64,000 nucleotides of DNA from Clostridiales bacterium. GTDB taxonomy: Bacteria > Bacillota > Clostridia > Christensenellales > Aristaeellaceae. The translations under genes and the position numbers were made by a program. This document shows positions 46,376 through 51,882 of the stretch, piece by piece. The stretch is taken from contig JAAYIN010000037.1 of NCBI GenBank assembly GCA_012523405.1, forward strand, positions 1 through 64,000. Direction: 5' to 3'. A model generated the notes under the pieces. It did not search any database and was not told where the DNA came from. It worked only from the letters and a program-made list of their open reading frames with translations. How positions within the stretch are numbered: position 1 is the first letter of the stretch; every line of letters starts with the position of its first letter.

Positions 46376-48031
46376 TTACTTATTTTCGTCTCGGCTGCGA
46401 ATGAGCTTGCGCTGAATCTTACCGCTGACAGTTTTGGGTAGGTCATCCACGAATTCAATGATACGCGGATACTTGTAAGGAGCTGTTACCTGCTTGACAT
46501 GGGTTTGCAGTTCTTTTTTCAGCTCGTCGGATGGTTGATACTCGCCGCTTTTCACAAGCACGATCGTTGCCTTAACGATCTGCCCGCGGTCAGGATGCGG
46601 TACTGCTGTAACTGCGCATTCAAGCACTGCAGGGTGACTGATCAATGCACTTTCCACCTCGAAAGGTCCAATGCGGTAACCGCTGGACTTGATCACATCA
46701 TCGCTGCGGCCAACGAAATTATAGTAGCCTTCTACATCGCGCCACGCCATGTCGCCCGTATGATACATGTTATCATAGAACACAGCGTCGGTCTGCTCTT
46801 TGCTTCTATAATATTCCGTGAATAGCCCTGCGGGATGACCACGGTCAAGCCTGACAACGATCTCGCCCTCAACGCCGTCATCCACATCATTGCCTTCGCT
46901 GTCAACCAGAGCGATATCATAGTTGGGCGACGGTCTGCCTGTGCTGCCTGGCTTTGGCTCCATCCATTTGCTGGTAAGAAGCAAGGGGGTTGATTCACTC
47001 TGACCAAAACCCTCGTGGATTTTAAGCCCTGTCAGGCGATAAAACTGCTCATAAACCTCGGGGTTTAGGGGCTCGCCGGCAGTATTTGCCCAGCGAAGCG
47101 ATGATAGATCATACTTGCTGAGGTCTTCCTTGATAATGAATCGATAAATGGTGGGGGGGGCACAGAAGCTTGTGACATGATACTGTGCAAGCTTTTGCAG
47201 AAGGTCAGGGGCGATAAAACGATCAAAGTCATAGACAAAGAGCGTTGCGCCGCAAATCCACTGTCCGTAAATCTTGCCCCAGCCAGCCTTTGCCCAGCCT
47301 GTATCCGCCACCGCAATATGCACATCATCATCGCCGATATTATGCCAGTAATAAGCCGTTGCTGTTTGCGCGATGGGATATGTCCAGTTGTGCACAGCCA
47401 TCTTAGGCATGCCGGTTGTGCCGCTGGTGAAGTACATGAGCATCATGTCTTCGTTATTGGGAAGATCTATGGGCTTGTCCCAGTCCTCAGATGCCGCTGC
47501 CATTTCAGCGTCAAAGTTTAAAAACCCCTCGGCTTCGCCAAGCGTAAACAATGCGGAAAGCGTGCTGCATTCTTTGGACGCTGCCAGCACATGCTCCTGT
47601 ACATCGGGCTCTTCCACGCAGATAATGGCGCACGAGCTGGATGCTTGCACGCGGTACACAACATCCTTTTTCTGCAATTGTGCGGTTGCGGGAATCAATA
47701 TACAGCCAATTTTGAGAAGTGCTACAGTCGCTACCCAATACTGCCAGCGACGCTTGAGCATGAGTACGACGGGATCGCCCTTTTTCAGCCCATGTGCCTT
47801 AAACACATTCGCGGCTTGATTGCTCATTTTGCTAATTTCCCCAAATGTAAACTCACGCTCGTTGCCATGAACATCGCACCAAATCAGCGCGCGCTTATTA
47901 GGTGAAATCCTCGCATATTCATCAACAACATCATAGGCAAAGTGGAAACGCTTGGGGATTTGCAATGAAAAGTTTTGTTCAAAGTCCTCTTGTGACGTAA
48001 AGTCGGTCCTAATATAACGATCGGCCAGCAT
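46376..48031 (-). CDS. AMP-forming acyl-CoA synthetase
   Basis: The 551-aa ANL-superfamily enzyme activates a carboxylic acid to its CoA ester through an acyl-AMP. It has the P-loop Y-F-T-S-G-T-T-G-M-P-K near 212, the core G-E-P-L-N-P-E-V and G-Q-S-E-S-T-P, the hinge Y-H-T-G-D-M-A-W and the C-terminal catalytic Lys in K-T-V-S-G-K-I-Q-R. It looks like the acetyl/medium-chain branch; the acid is not fixed. The start at 48031 has AAGGAG 9 nt upstream. A TTG at 48049 would overlap that box. It follows an XRE-cupin gene by 44 nt. Confidence 0.9.
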   Translation of the reverse strand: MLADRYIRTDFTSQEDFEQNFSLQIPKRFHFAYDVVDEYARISPNKRALIWCDVHGNEREFTFGEISKMSNQAANVFKAHGLKKGDPVVLMLKRRWQYWVATVALLKIGCILIPATAQLQKKDVVYRVQASSSCAIICVEEPDVQEHVLAASKECSTLSALFTLGEAEGFLNFDAEMAAASEDWDKPIDLPNNEDMMLMYFTSGTTGMPKMAVHNWTYPIAQTATAYYWHNIGDDDVHIAVADTGWAKAGWGKIYGQWICGATLFVYDFDRFIAPDLLQKLAQYHVTSFCAPPTIYRFIIKEDLSKYDLSSLRWANTAGEPLNPEVYEQFYRLTGLKIHEGFGQSESTPLLLTSKWMEPKPGSTGRPSPNYDIALVDSEGNDVDDGVEGEIVVRLDRGHPAGLFTEYYRSKEQTDAVFYDNMYHTGDMAWRDVEGYYNFVGRSDDVIKSSGYRIGPFEVESALISHPAVLECAVTAVPHPDRGQIVKATIVLVKSGEYQPSDELKKELQTHVKQVTAPYKYPRIIEFVDDLPKTVSGKIQRKLIRSRDENK

Positions 48032-48075
48032 TCTACCAAACTCCTTCAACTACGGCAGGCTCATGATCCTACTGC

Positions 48076-48630
48076 TTATGGAATCACCATCGCTAAAAAA
48101 TGTACCGCCTCATCACCTAGTGCCTGCATAGCGTGGGGTGTATGGGAATCATAATACACGCTATCGCCCGGATGAAGAATAATGTCATTTTTGCCAATCA
48201 CAATACGCATTGTGCCCGAAAGCACATAGTCAAACTCCTGCCCATCATGACTGTTAGGCACAAGCTCCTTGTTCGTATCGGGTGGCACAGTGACAAATAA
48301 CGGTTCAATTTTGCGATGCACAAAATTGTACGCTAAGTTCTTATAGATATATTGATCACGACGGCTAATTTGCTGTCCCTTGCCCGCGCGCGTTACGCTC
48401 AGAATATTGAGTTTGGGGCTTTCGCCCGTCAACAATTCCGTCATATCCACATTAAAAACTTCGCCAATCTTAACCAAAAAGCTGATCGGCATGTCAACCT
48501 CACCGCTCTCATATTTGCGGTAATCATCTACGGATACACCTAGTACTTCTGCCATCTGTTCGACGGTGTAGTCCGAGATTTCGCGAAGATCCAAAATACG
48601 CATGGCAATTTGCTTCACAGAATCGGACAT
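48076..48630 (-). CDS. XRE-family regulator with cupin sensor domain
   Basis: The 184-aa protein has a helix-turn-helix (about 8-58, M-A-E-V-L-G-V-S-V-D-D-Y-R-K-Y-E-S-G), a linker and a C-terminal cupin (about 110-180) with S-H-D-G-Q-E-F-D-Y-V-L-S-G and H-P-G-D-S-V-Y-Y-D-S-H-T-P-H-A. Such proteins commonly sense a small carboxylate or amine and regulate the gene beside them, here the acyl-CoA synthetase (inference). The start at 48630 has AAGGAGG upstream. Confidence 0.88.
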   Translation of the reverse strand: MSDSVKQIAMRILDLREISDYTVEQMAEVLGVSVDDYRKYESGEVDMPISFLVKIGEVFNVDMTELLTGESPKLNILSVTRAGKGQQISRRDQYIYKNLAYNFVHRKIEPLFVTVPPDTNKELVPNSHDGQEFDYVLSGTMRIVIGKNDIILHPGDSVYYDSHTPHAMQALGDEAVHFLAMVIP

Positions 48631-48784
48631 AACGGGTGCGCCTCCTTTATAGCCCTCTTGGGGCAAACTTATCCCTCATTATACACAATTCCACATTTCG
48701 ATACAAGCACTTATTTCATCAGATACGTATAAAAAACAAAGAAAAGCGATTGTATGTATATTCGGTGTATGCACTTTAAGCAAA

Positions 48785-48821
48785 TACAAACCCCATGTCT
48801 TTTATCGACATGGGGTTTGTA
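48785..48821 (-). terminator. Intrinsic terminator after PII-like gene
   Basis: A perfect 15-bp stem (TACAAACCCCATGTC with its complement) around a 7-nt loop, 23 nt past the stop at 48844. On the minus strand TTTGCTT follows. Confidence 0.8.
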
Positions 48822-48843
48822 CTTATATGACATGAGGTCATAT

Positions 48844-49563
48844 TTATTCGTCGTCATCCTCGCTTGAAATCTCGCCCGCTGCTTCCATAACGCTGCGAAG
48901 ACCCGCTACGTTTTCTACAGGCAGGGAGAACATCACGGTATGAGCAGGGCTCTTTAGGCCTGCGTTTTCCATAATGCAGCGCATGATCTCGCTCTTATCC
49001 TTCGCCGCTGTCAAAATCAGCAGCATTTCCTTCTCATCAGCGATGGGCATGCCGAAGAACTTGTTATCACCAAAGGGATTGGTTCCCCGTGCGTGAATGA
49101 CTGTTCCGCCCATTGCACCCGCTGCTCTAGCAGCGTCCATTACACTATCCACATGTCCGCGATTGGTAATCGCAACAATCAGTTCATATAAGAAAACCTG
49201 TTCTTCCACATTTGCCACCTCACCTATAATGATTTTTTGGCCTTTGGTTAGGTATTTTAGGCTGCTAGCGCCAGCGATACTGCCTACAGGAATTGTCATC
49301 GCGCAGCCATTGCCGTGCATGTCAAGTCCCATGGTGCTAACCAGTTCCGTCATCAGGCGCTTTGCCTTTTTCTTGCGTACCATTGTATAAATAAGTGCCT
49401 TGCCTGTTTTCTCCAGGCCCATTAAGCTCAGTAATTTCTGGCTTGCAGTTCCTTGGCAAAGCAAACCAAAAATGCTCTCTACATCATTATCTCGCAAAAA
49501 TGCCGTTAAATCCTCGTCATATTCACGCTTGACAATAACAACCAACAGTCGAAGGTCATGCAT
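48844..49563 (-). CDS. Tandem PII-like signalling protein partnered with DUF1538 transporter
   Basis: The 239-aa protein is built of two PII-like halves: about 3-100 (L-R-L-L-V-V-I-V-K-R-E...I-Y-T-M-V-R-K-K-K-A-K-R-L-M) and about 123-230 (Y-E-L-I-V-A-I-T-N-R-G-H-V-D-S-V-M-D-A-A-R-A-A-G-A). The second half has a T-loop-like H-A-R-G-T-N-P-F-G-D-N-K-F-F-G followed by E-K-E-M-L-L-I-L, typical of P-II-family proteins. Canonical uridylylation Tyr51 is not evident. PII proteins bind ATP/ADP and metabolites and gate partner proteins. The gene lies 39 nt after a DUF1538 membrane protein, the likely partner. The acidic tail (S-S-E-D-D-D-E) is notable. Confidence 0.82.
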   Translation of the reverse strand: MHDLRLLVVIVKREYDEDLTAFLRDNDVESIFGLLCQGTASQKLLSLMGLEKTGKALIYTMVRKKKAKRLMTELVSTMGLDMHGNGCAMTIPVGSIAGASSLKYLTKGQKIIIGEVANVEEQVFLYELIVAITNRGHVDSVMDAARAAGAMGGTVIHARGTNPFGDNKFFGMPIADEKEMLLILTAAKDKSEIMRCIMENAGLKSPAHTVMFSLPVENVAGLRSVMEAAGEISSEDDDE

Positions 49564-49602
49564 ATGTTTCTAATACCTCCTTATCAGTAGGGTAGTATAC
49601 CA

Positions 49603-51189
49603 TCATTCGATAATTTCCTCAACCATAGATGTATCATTTTGGCTTTCCGCGTCATTTTTCTTTTGCTTATGGCTAAAGACTAGGCCAAGGATTTGAATCG
49701 CAATCAACGGTGTCATCGCAACCATCGCAACCACACCAAATGCGTCTGTGGCAACGTTGCCGCCGACCGCCACGCATGTGCCCATTGCGAGCGGCAGCAG
49801 GAAGGTTGCGGTCATGGGTCCCGATGCAACGCCGCCCGAGTCAAATGCGATGGACGTAAACACAGGCGGAACGAATTTCATTAGTATCATAGCAATTGTG
49901 TAGCCGGGAATCAAGAGGTACATCAATGGCATTCCTGTTAAAATTCGGAGCATCGATAATCCGACCGATGCCGCAACGCCAATTGACAAGCTCAAATTAA
50001 GGGCTCGCTTTGGGATCGAACCTGCGCTGAGTTCATATACCTGCTTTGCAAGGACGTGAACAGCGGGCTCTGCCGCGACAACGAAATAACCAATGACCAT
50101 GCCAACAGGAATCAGTATCCAGTTGAATTCCAGTGCGCCCATCATCTGTCCAAGGTAGTTACCCATGGGCATAAAGCCTACATTAACGCCTGTCAAGAAC
50201 AGCACTAGACCAATGTAGGTGTAAAATAGACCAGAAATAATACGCGCCACTTCATTGCGATGAAGTTTGAGAATGAAAATCTGGAAAATGATGAAAAACA
50301 CAACAATGGGCAGAACCGCCATCGCTACCTCGACCATATAAGTCGGGATGGCTTGGATGAACATCTGTGCCATGGACTGTGTATCGGGGATGGAAACAAG
50401 CTCCAGCGGAACATAAGGGGTGCTTTCAGGATGGTAGATCAGGCTCAAAATCATCACAGCCAAGATCGGACCAACCGAACATAGCGCCACAAGTCCGAAG
50501 CTATCACTGCCCGCGTCCTTATCGCTACGCATTGCACTCACGCCAACGCCCAGCGCTAGGATGAAGGGAACTGTCATCGGCCCTGTTGTTACACCGCCTG
50601 AGTCAAATGCTACTGCTAGGAATGTATCTGGGACAAACTGTGCCAGAATGAAAATCAAACCATAGCAGCCAAGGAGCAGCCACGACATCTTAATCTTGAA
50701 CATAATACGAAATAACGCAATGACAAGAAAAATTCCGACGCCGATGGAAACCGCCATAATCATCACCATGTTAGGCACACCCGGCACCTGCTCTGCGAGC
50801 ACCTGCAAATCGGGTTCTGACATGGTCACGAACATACCCACTAAAAAAGCAACCAGCGCTGTAAGCCACAGCTTGTTATTGCGCGATAAAGCAGAACCTA
50901 CATGCTCGCCTATCGGCGTCATCGCTAGGTCCGTACCAAGTGAAAACAGCGCCATTCCTACGATCAGCATCACCGCGCCGATCAAAAATGCCATCATGGA
51001 GTCAGTTGGAATGGGCAAAAGGACAAAACATAATATCATTACGATCACAGTGATCGGAACAACTGATGAGACCGACTCGGCCATTTTCTCCCTCAGGATC
51101 GTTCGATGATCTTGTCCATTTTTCTTCATACGTCTTTTTTGCTGCTCAAATTTCTCTTTTTTCTCTCTTTTCTCTCGCTCTTTGGGCAT
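49603..51189 (-). CDS. DUF1538 multi-pass membrane protein with two homologous halves
   Basis: The 528-aa protein has a basic, highly charged N-terminus (about 1-45) and about twelve or more membrane segments. The two halves repeat the same landmarks: M-T-P-I-G-E-H-V-G / F-M-P-M-G-N-Y-L-G; S-E-P-D-L-Q-V-L-A-E-Q-V / A-E-P-A-V-H-V-L-A-K-Q-V; A-F-D-S-G-G-V-T-T-G-P-M-T / A-F-D-S-G-G-V-A-S-G-P-M-T; and D-S-F-G-L-V-A / D-A-F-G-V-V-A. This pseudo-twofold design, with a duplicated A-F-D-S-G-G motif, is typical of secondary transporters. The substrate is unknown. Start at 51189 with AAAGGAG upstream. Confidence 0.85.
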   Translation of the reverse strand: MPKEREKREKKEKFEQQKRRMKKNGQDHRTILREKMAESVSSVVPITVIVMILCFVLLPIPTDSMMAFLIGAVMLIVGMALFSLGTDLAMTPIGEHVGSALSRNNKLWLTALVAFLVGMFVTMSEPDLQVLAEQVPGVPNMVMIMAVSIGVGIFLVIALFRIMFKIKMSWLLLGCYGLIFILAQFVPDTFLAVAFDSGGVTTGPMTVPFILALGVGVSAMRSDKDAGSDSFGLVALCSVGPILAVMILSLIYHPESTPYVPLELVSIPDTQSMAQMFIQAIPTYMVEVAMAVLPIVVFFIIFQIFILKLHRNEVARIISGLFYTYIGLVLFLTGVNVGFMPMGNYLGQMMGALEFNWILIPVGMVIGYFVVAAEPAVHVLAKQVYELSAGSIPKRALNLSLSIGVAASVGLSMLRILTGMPLMYLLIPGYTIAMILMKFVPPVFTSIAFDSGGVASGPMTATFLLPLAMGTCVAVGGNVATDAFGVVAMVAMTPLIAIQILGLVFSHKQKKNDAESQNDTSMVEEIIE

Positions 51190-51882
51190 TTCATCACTCC
51201 TTTGTTTCGTTGATTCGTTGTCATTCAAAGATGTCTGCCTGGTCAATGATTTGCACATTGGCACTTACGCTGGAAGTGCGCAAATTAGGTTATCTAAACT
51301 CCTGTCAATGGCAAATGCCACCACAAGCAGACATTCTCGCCTTCGTATCGCAAAAAAACCCTGATCTACATCCAGTATTGGACGATGTCGACCAAATCAT
51401 ACTGCCGTCATCCTAAGTGACCTCAGGCAATACTTGATCGATGCAGACAAGTACCTTTGCAAAACATTTTTTCAGAAATTTTTCTGTTACACTGAAAGCA
51501 CATGCAATGCACCAAATATGACATGCTATTAAAGTGTATGCATTCAGCCCTATAAAAATGACTACCCATTAAGTATAACAAGATGTGAGGAAATAAGCAA
51601 CTTGCCAATCGATTCTTAACAGTTCGTTAATTTCCAGAGGGCCGTAGTGAAATAATATATCGTCTCATTCCAAATAGACCATCCGTCAAGCGTACGATAC
51701 ATGTATAAAGTCACATCGCAGCCCAGCCATCGTTTTTTTTCTGAGAACGAAGAAATATTTGTACTTCCAAATCTTTCCCCTGCATAAACCCACCTCAAAA
51801 TCCCATACTAGGGATGCAAAGACAAAACGGCACAAACGTGCATTAGCTGCACGTCAAAAGCCGTCAAGGAGGCTGAAAGCAA
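51190..51882. other. 693-nt intergenic region upstream of spoVT
   Basis: The region holds the leader of the DUF1538 gene on the left and the spoVT promoter on the right. A 61-codon frame at 51231-51416 (+) gives a protein-like string (ending H-P-V-L-D-D-V-D-Q-I-I-L-P) but has no ribosome site. A minus-strand frame at 51616-51798 lacks an ATG start. Both may be debris of older genes. No RNA gene or mobile element is seen. Confidence 0.5.
51782..51810 (+). promoter_or_regulatory. Sigma-G/F-type promoter of spoVT
   Basis: GCATA (51782-51786), a 17-bp spacer and CATACTA (51804-51810) match the forespore sigma-G consensus (GNATR, CATNNTA). spoVT is a known sigma-G gene in Bacillus. The transcription start would fall near 51817, giving a 66-nt leader. 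Confidence 0.72.

Follow-up and report, generated by a model that had tools for sequence, protein, structure and literature searches.

A conserved pairing of a DUF1538 membrane protein, a putative cation/proton antiporter, with a tandem PII-like protein in Clostridia and other Bacillota

In the genome of a Clostridiales bacterium (assembly GCA_012523405.1, contig JAAYIN010000037.1, positions 1 to 64,000, a stretch of 64,000 nucleotides that is called the window here), a gene for a DUF1538 membrane protein is followed on the reverse strand by a gene for a PII-like protein with two PII domains in tandem. The DUF1538 gene (49603..51189, (-)) has an ATG start and encodes 528 amino acids, in which UmpA-like and UmpB-like parts are fused and 14 membrane spans are predicted as 7+7 inverted halves; its reading frame is open further upstream and reaches a GTG at 51264. 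After a gap of 39 nucleotides (49564..49602, (-), read directly from the sequence) follows the PII gene (48844..49563, (-), 239 amino acids), with AAGGAGG at 49576-49582 as a good ribosome-binding site ahead of its start. The coordinates agree with an earlier note on this DNA, which had placed the two genes at these positions, 39 nucleotides apart. As described below, the two genes are a conserved unit, and it is likely that they encode an antiporter and its regulator.

The membrane protein clearly belongs to DUF1538, as Pfam (PF07556) finds the family in two stretches with 477 bits against a gathering cut-off of 22.6. It is an internal duplication, as the earlier note had proposed, evident from the two Pfam stretches and from the self-alignment of its halves at a score of 336, whereas 500 shuffles gave 44.9 +/- 7.2 with a maximum of 72. 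The first half (residues 40-252, 50434..51072, (-)) is UmpA-like and predicted to have its N-terminus inside, while the second half (residues 270-502, 49684..50382, (-)) is UmpB-like and predicted to have its N-terminus outside; in NCBIfam, each half matches both UmpA and UmpB (E 4e-51 and 2e-42). The pattern A-F-D-S-G-G-V-x-x-G-P-M-T, which had been noticed twice, indeed occurs as AFDSGGVTTGPMT (residues 194-206, 50572..50610, (-)), located at the break between two helices, and as AFDSGGVASGPMT (residues 448-460, 49810..49848, (-)). The acidic residues E125, D127, D196, E374 and D450 are kept in all 70 rows of a DUF1538 alignment (A5).

The second protein is a member of the Pfam PII family (PF00543, 41 bits for the whole protein vs a cut-off of 25), with its best stretch in the C-terminal domain. 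A direct comparison of its own halves is weak (45 vs a shuffle maximum of 42), but a single-domain profile built from 20 linked PII genes of other genomes (A4) recognizes the C domain at 92.7 bits (E 3.6e-26) and the N domain at 59.7 bits (E 6.3e-16), which bears out the duplicated PII-like protein of the earlier note. The N-terminal domain (residues 1-115, 49219..49563, (-)) belongs to a fast-evolving type and carries a B-loop of its own, H-G-N-G, and the C-terminal domain (residues 124-230, 48874..49194, (-)) belongs to a slower-evolving type without the P-G-x-G B-loop.

The distribution of both genes was followed in a phylum sample of 299 genomes, that of the window included, and in a class sample of 245 genomes; the samples overlap slightly and their genomes are not independent. 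With a threshold of E <= 1e-6 for the linked-PII profile, DUF1538 is found in 101 genomes of the phylum sample, the linked PII in 106 and both in 100, so that PII is present in 100/101 DUF1538 genomes vs 6/198 others (Fisher p 6e-71). In the class sample, DUF1538 is found in 86 genomes, PII in 88 and both in 82, that is, PII in 82/86 DUF1538 genomes vs 6/159 others (p 3e-52). Closer to the window, the same 13 of the 21 nearest relatives (own genome included) carry both genes, each pair on one contig, and these 13 include 10 of 12 further members of the genus. A named collection, consisting of the best 80 of 560 confirmed stretches, with titles that point to Clostridia or other Bacillota wherever they name a group, has PII directly downstream of DUF1538 in 79/80 loci, and the remaining one (L080) lies on a contig that stops within the DUF1538 gene. 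The consistent genomic separation in related species that the earlier note had considered as a refutation is not what these genomes show. Within the flanks covered, no other frequent operon partner appears, as the next-largest cluster of neighbours is present in 12/80 loci.

Among the matches listed for the phylum sample, 92/94 DUF1538 systems have PII within 1.5 kb; in 88 it is clearly located downstream and on the same strand, and the other four are flagged, either as doubles (G076, G103 and G137) or for a contig end (G153). The doubles lie back to back (G076:C152:1605-5296, G103:C120:16721-20215 and G137:C73:49026-52654). Of the two misses, that in G083 is an assembly break, as the end of its DUF1538 gene and the PII gene after it are found on a different contig, and that in G218 is real. 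PII is also present in all 29 loci fetched from the phylum sample. The four DUF1538-only genomes of the class sample consist of two in which the contig ends right after the gene (G363 and G485), one in which the PII frame is cut at a contig end (G401) and one with a partial match (G446). The operon is conserved, with G218 and G465 as exceptions, to which I return below.

The sole DUF1538 genome of the phylum sample without PII, G056, holds a remnant of DUF1538, one stretch of which contains six stops (C1:2161174-2161630, loci L137 and L141), and no PII of the subfamily, which reads as decay of the whole system. The six PII-only genomes of the phylum sample have weaker matches, one at 8e-19 over a 49-residue piece (G049) and five between 7e-11 and 2e-7, and these last five form a clade of their own on a long branch (support 100/100). 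The piece in G049 (L123, C31:49228-49374), in a genome without DUF1538, is possibly the remnant of a lost system. Five of the PII-only genomes in the class sample are likewise weak (E 7e-11 to 8e-7), the sixth being G465. I had also considered that the window copy is foreign to its class, as 0/9 same-class genomes listed in the phylum sample carry it, but this was dropped in view of 86/245 in the class sample and 10/12 in the genus.

DUF1538 is also present on nine plasmid records, the same nine being returned by a repeat query. Of the seven that were opened, five have an annotated P-II gene adjoining DUF1538, and two unannotated records contain a tandem PII frame that overlaps the end of the DUF1538 frame. 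Two alphaproteobacterial plasmids show umpA, umpB and then one single-domain PII (L034:4570-6184 and L035:4267-6058, on conjugative or mobilizable plasmids). The Methylocystis plasmid locus has IS66 genes on both flanks, and the annotated umpA of Chelativorans measures 273 nucleotides in a longer open frame. In viral contigs, 0/90 and 0/30 pattern matches were confirmed.

The architecture of the pair varies. The transporter is fused in all 80 named loci. PII is a full tandem in 76 of them, with two PII stretches in one frame and an N stretch of 7.9-56 bits; in one it is cut by a contig end (L114), in two it is encoded by two genes, and one locus is without the PII stretch. Of the 29 phylum-sample loci, 7 have a fused transporter, and in the other 22 it is split or incompletely covered; 20 loci have a tandem PII (truncated by an end in two of them), 7 a pair of PII genes and 2 a single one. 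In six loci, DUF1538, DUF1538 and PII form one open frame of 608-641 amino acids with a C-terminal PII domain (L163:579-2441, L164:1107-2972, L165:145-2025, L166:501-2357, L167:509-2335 and L168:493-2418, from genomes G375, G391, G461, G503, G529 and G348 and families f146, f130 and f144), and the fused domain scores 39-67 bits with a single-PII model. L163, L164, L166 and L167 also have a tandem PII gene just upstream, giving three PII domains, and in L168 a fused domain of the N type is followed by a C-type single PII. The earlier note had suggested one PII half per transporter half; the doubling on both sides stands, but the one-to-one match is not required, as 2/29 phylum loci and both alphaproteobacterial plasmids combine a single-domain PII with two DUF1538 genes, and it is weakened further by the four loci with three PII domains. 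The six natural fusions imply nearness of transporter and PII, and are the strongest sign found here that the two act together.

An 18-bp hairpin lies directly 3' of the PII stop (48782..48824, (-), from folding); the 69-nucleotide stretch 48775-48843 around it has a minimum free energy of -34.4 kcal/mol and a z of -9.8, and the hairpin is the probable end of the DUF1538-PII transcript. It is not among the sites listed by a terminator scan, and its T run is weak. A promoter scan of the window found 5 sites vs 5.5 expected, and a search of the window for riboswitches or RNA leaders returned none. In the 13 of the 80 named loci that were searched for RNA elements, 0/5 matches (one T-box, one lysine riboswitch and three tRNAs) lie on the DUF1538 strand just 5' of the gene. 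Past the hairpin, a helix-turn-helix (HTH)-cupin regulator and an acyl-CoA synthetase-like AMP-binding enzyme are the next two genes of the same strand (46376-48666, (-)).

The structure prediction suggested in the earlier note was run on the DUF1538 protein (70 sequences) and gave a predicted local distance difference test (pLDDT) of 92.5 and a predicted template modelling score (pTM) of 0.89. In the model, helix lengths recur across the halves (62-103/311-352, 107-123/356-372 and 140-164/394-418), and each half has two broken helices, one at the S-E-P-D or A-E-P-A motif and one at the A-F-D-S-G-G motif. The protein is predicted to consist of two homologous partners of seven spans each, and the 7+7 spans agree with the pattern of lysine and arginine (K/R) in the loops. 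K/R in loop 1-2 is 0.01 in the first half vs 3.99 in the second, and in the helix-2 extension it is 3.21 in the first half vs 0.29 in the second. In split proteins, summed K/R is larger in inside loops than in outside loops in 22/22 UmpA and 22/22 UmpB; since the loop sides had been fixed beforehand from the window protein and the tested proteins are related, this evidence is strong but not independent. These loop charges, not the model coordinates, support an inverted orientation of the two halves in the membrane, so that the inverted or parallel repeat expected earlier appears to be the inverted one. The DUF1538-DUF1538-PII fusions agree with a cytoplasmic C-terminus of the transporter.

Sequence searches returned no solved-structure relative of DUF1538. 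Partial matches of the model to CLC, EAAT, CNT and NaS1/INDY chains are weak (Z 2.8-4.4), and those to EAAT, CNT and NaS1/INDY involve mostly residues about 103-258. A named fold was dropped, as the best Z of 5.5 over 60 residues is too weak.

The PII model has a pLDDT of 85.8 and a pTM of 0.83, and in it both domains have the PII-type ferredoxin fold. Residues 2-105 of the N domain match SbtB (6mmc, Z 10.2, root-mean-square deviation (rmsd) 2.3, 88 aligned), a match that ties with GlnK, CPII and CutA chains, and residues 126-228 of the C domain match the Herbaspirillum PII (1hwu, Z 9.8, rmsd 2.5, 86 aligned); for both domains CutA lies within 1 Z. In 67 tandem PII proteins (A6), the B-loop P-G-x-G is present in 48/67 N domains and 0/67 C domains, and it is found in 12/20 rows of A4. 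Across these 67 proteins, the mean pairwise identity is higher in the C domain (0.50) than in the N domain (0.34), and the T-loop region is conserved in both domains, but differently in each. A tree of 119 PII domains groups the C domains with three single PIIs and with the second members of split gene pairs (59 rows, support 94/90, under the star threshold), while the N domains are long-branched and form no single clade; the tree covers a subset of loci, with few columns and many open forks, and the PII of L035 was excluded by a length filter. These sequence patterns fit a single early duplication of PII, after which the first copy changed faster.

Canonical GlnB/GlnK proteins contact their ligands with a B-loop T-G-x-x-G-D-G-K and with basic residues of the C-loop. 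The linked-PII subfamily lacks this signature: kpgkgiaf in its profile aligns with GDGK/RIF of solved PIIs, with the basic residue replaced, and aGi replaces YRIR. As the PII ligand pocket lies between subunits (PMC10117731), a chain that retains a single intact B-loop could contribute to composite sites, or it could be a product of decay.

The earlier note took the substrate to be undescribed, which does not hold. UmpA and UmpB of Halomonas zhaodongensis, both DUF1538 proteins, have been described as a Na+(Li+,K+)/H+ antiporter (NCBIfam NF041627/NF041628), a heterodimer that confers salt and alkali tolerance and shows pH-dependent antiport in vesicles (PMC5484666). A machine-learning model for the growth pH of bacteria has DUF1538 in its top 20 Pfam features (PMC13255231). 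Neither the two protein families nor the gating of transporters by PII is new, and public annotation places both genes side by side. The main text of the UmpAB paper has zero occurrences of PII, P-II, topology or inverted (PMC5484666), PII goes unmentioned in the available text of a cable-bacteria paper that names UmpAB (PMC12093952), and the openly licensed literature searched contains no paper on the DUF1538-PII pairing, tandem PII or an inverted UmpAB topology.

Taken together, the membrane protein is likely to be an antiporter of the DUF1538 (UmpAB) family that exchanges monovalent cations (Na+, K+ or Li+) for H+ and is gated by a dedicated PII regulator from the same operon; gating, ligand and ion are what I infer from these comparisons. 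The fused protein would be a single inverted-repeat unit, like the UmpA-UmpB heterodimer, with a cytoplasmic C-terminus that would make any fused PII cytoplasmic too. E125, D127 and D196 in the first half and E374 and D450 in the second, at the helix breaks of each half, may bind cation and protons alternately. The PII protein could dock via its T-loops onto the cytoplasmic face of the transporter, and whether it blocks or releases transport would depend on a small ligand bound to it, most probably an adenine nucleotide, although inhibition as the effect on transport is a guess. Energy status would thereby set cation and pH homeostasis. Adenine nucleotides are proposed by analogy with SbtA-SbtB, in which the T-loops of the SbtB trimer enter the cytoplasmic cavity of SbtA in an AMP-dependent manner (PMC10117731), whereas sensing of 2-oxoglutarate is less likely, since the canonical ligand residues are not conserved. 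In the doubled PII the domains may have specialized, as the N domain mostly retains the B-loop of the nucleotide site and the C domain has a T-loop near that of single PIIs. A more detailed version is possible but rather doubtful, in which the sensor would be a two-domain heteromer, with the nucleotide-site B-loop from the N domain and the target-binding T-loop from the C domain, whose composite N/C sites gate the 14-span inverted-repeat antiporter and link adenylate energy charge to pH and Na+/K+ in gut Clostridia, some lineages having PII as a part of the transporter itself.

Several observations weigh against an antiporter gated by PII. The topology fits poorly in the second half, where loop 4-5, predicted outside, has a K/R of 1.03 and loop 5-6, predicted inside, of 0.11, and a Foldseek search of the DUF1538 model against the PDB found no match at E <= 0.001. 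The relative in G083, outside the 70-row set, has G in place of D127. The equivalog cut-offs of UmpA and UmpB are not reached (173.6 vs 490 and 145.4 vs 500), so ion specificity may differ; five split DUF1538 proteins (Methylocystis, Chelativorans and G122) are likewise under these cut-offs, and cation/proton antiport is therefore a best guess and not a claim of membership. On the side of the regulator, PII regulation seems confined to transporters that work as trimers (PMC10710835), and the transporters covered in the available part of that review are AmtB, Amt1, Nrt, Urt and SbtA, with no antiporter among them. UmpAB was active in Escherichia coli without a co-cloned PII (PMC5484666), which makes PII dispensable for transport itself, although this fits PII as a regulator and not as an essential subunit. 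The PII domain of the fusions would be overlooked by standard annotation, as Pfam does not detect it in either of the two fused proteins tested. In G218, the tandem PII is encoded on a separate contig, where its neighbours on either side read as a permease and an endonuclease-like gene, and G465 has a real tandem PII and no DUF1538 match in its genome. This last PII (L173:2230-2943) lies beside rubrerythrin-like and Fur-like genes, and could be an orphan sensor or have lost its transporter.

Alternatively, the pairing may be caused by chance or by annotation artefacts, to which I give next to no credence; the separated genes of G218 and the lone PII of G465 would be expected from it, but the linkage counts and the fused proteins refute it. 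It is also rather unlikely that the PII-like protein senses no ligand and acts as constitutive subunit or assembly factor of the transporter. The absence of P-G-x-G from 67/67 C domains, the replaced basic residue at the end of the B-loop in the subfamily profile and the H-G-N-G of the N domain in the window would all suit such a role, but P-G-x-G is retained in 48/67 N domains and 12/20 single-domain rows, and UmpAB works without a co-cloned PII.

The same activity in E. coli suits a different arrangement, in which the transporter is the sensor and, depending on ions or pH, sequesters PII at the membrane, while free PII acts on a cytosolic target. GlnK is both the regulator of AmtB and its sequestered partner, and the tandem PII without DUF1538 in G465 also counts in favour; nevertheless, a PII domain fused to the transporter, as in six loci, cannot be released, and no other gene is often linked (12/80 loci for the next neighbour cluster), which makes a transporter acting as sensor improbable. 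Finally, the clostridial transporters might carry a substrate other than Na+/K+, such as ammonium or an organic ion, under PII control. Scores far under the UmpA/UmpB cut-offs leave room for this, and PII proteins often serve nitrogen uptake (PMC10710835), but the conserved acidic residues at the helix breaks suit cation/proton exchange and the genome of the window already has an Amt-PII fusion for ammonium, so I consider another substrate unlikely.

If a PII-linked cation/proton antiporter is indeed what these genes encode, PII control would extend from nutrient uptake to salt and pH homeostasis, as the known PII-gated transporters carry ammonium, nitrate, urea and bicarbonate (PMC10710835). 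The transporter is present in about a third of the sampled genomes (101/299 in the phylum and 86/245 in the class), and the conserved, sometimes fused pairing suggests that metabolic state controls the salt and pH balance of the cell via this pump. Two-domain PIIs and transporter-PII fusions could serve as natural tests of how labour is divided in a duplicated PII, and the inverted halves give a testable structural idea for a family without a solved-structure relative in the searches run.

Among known systems, UmpAB shares with the window protein the DUF1538 family and the two homologous partners of seven spans, which in UmpAB are encoded by overlapping genes; UmpA and UmpB are separate proteins in Halomonas, whereas they are fused in the window. 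AmtB-GlnK and Amt-PII are similar in that a transporter adjoins or is fused to a PII protein, with T-loop gating as the model there, but the canonical PII ligand residues are partly lost in the linked-PII subfamily. The genome of the window has such a fusion itself (L145:3603-5354, contig C86), a 583-amino-acid Amt-PII protein with PII as the C-terminal domain, which is the only other PII match of that genome and lies beside a glutamine-synthetase-like gene. SbtA-SbtB of cyanobacteria is comparable in that a secondary transporter shares its operon with a PII-like protein (PMC10117731), and SbtB (6mmc) is matched by the model of the N domain (Z 10.2). However, SbtA belongs to another transporter family and performs Na+/bicarbonate symport instead of antiport, and SbtB has a single domain where the PII-like protein of the window has two.

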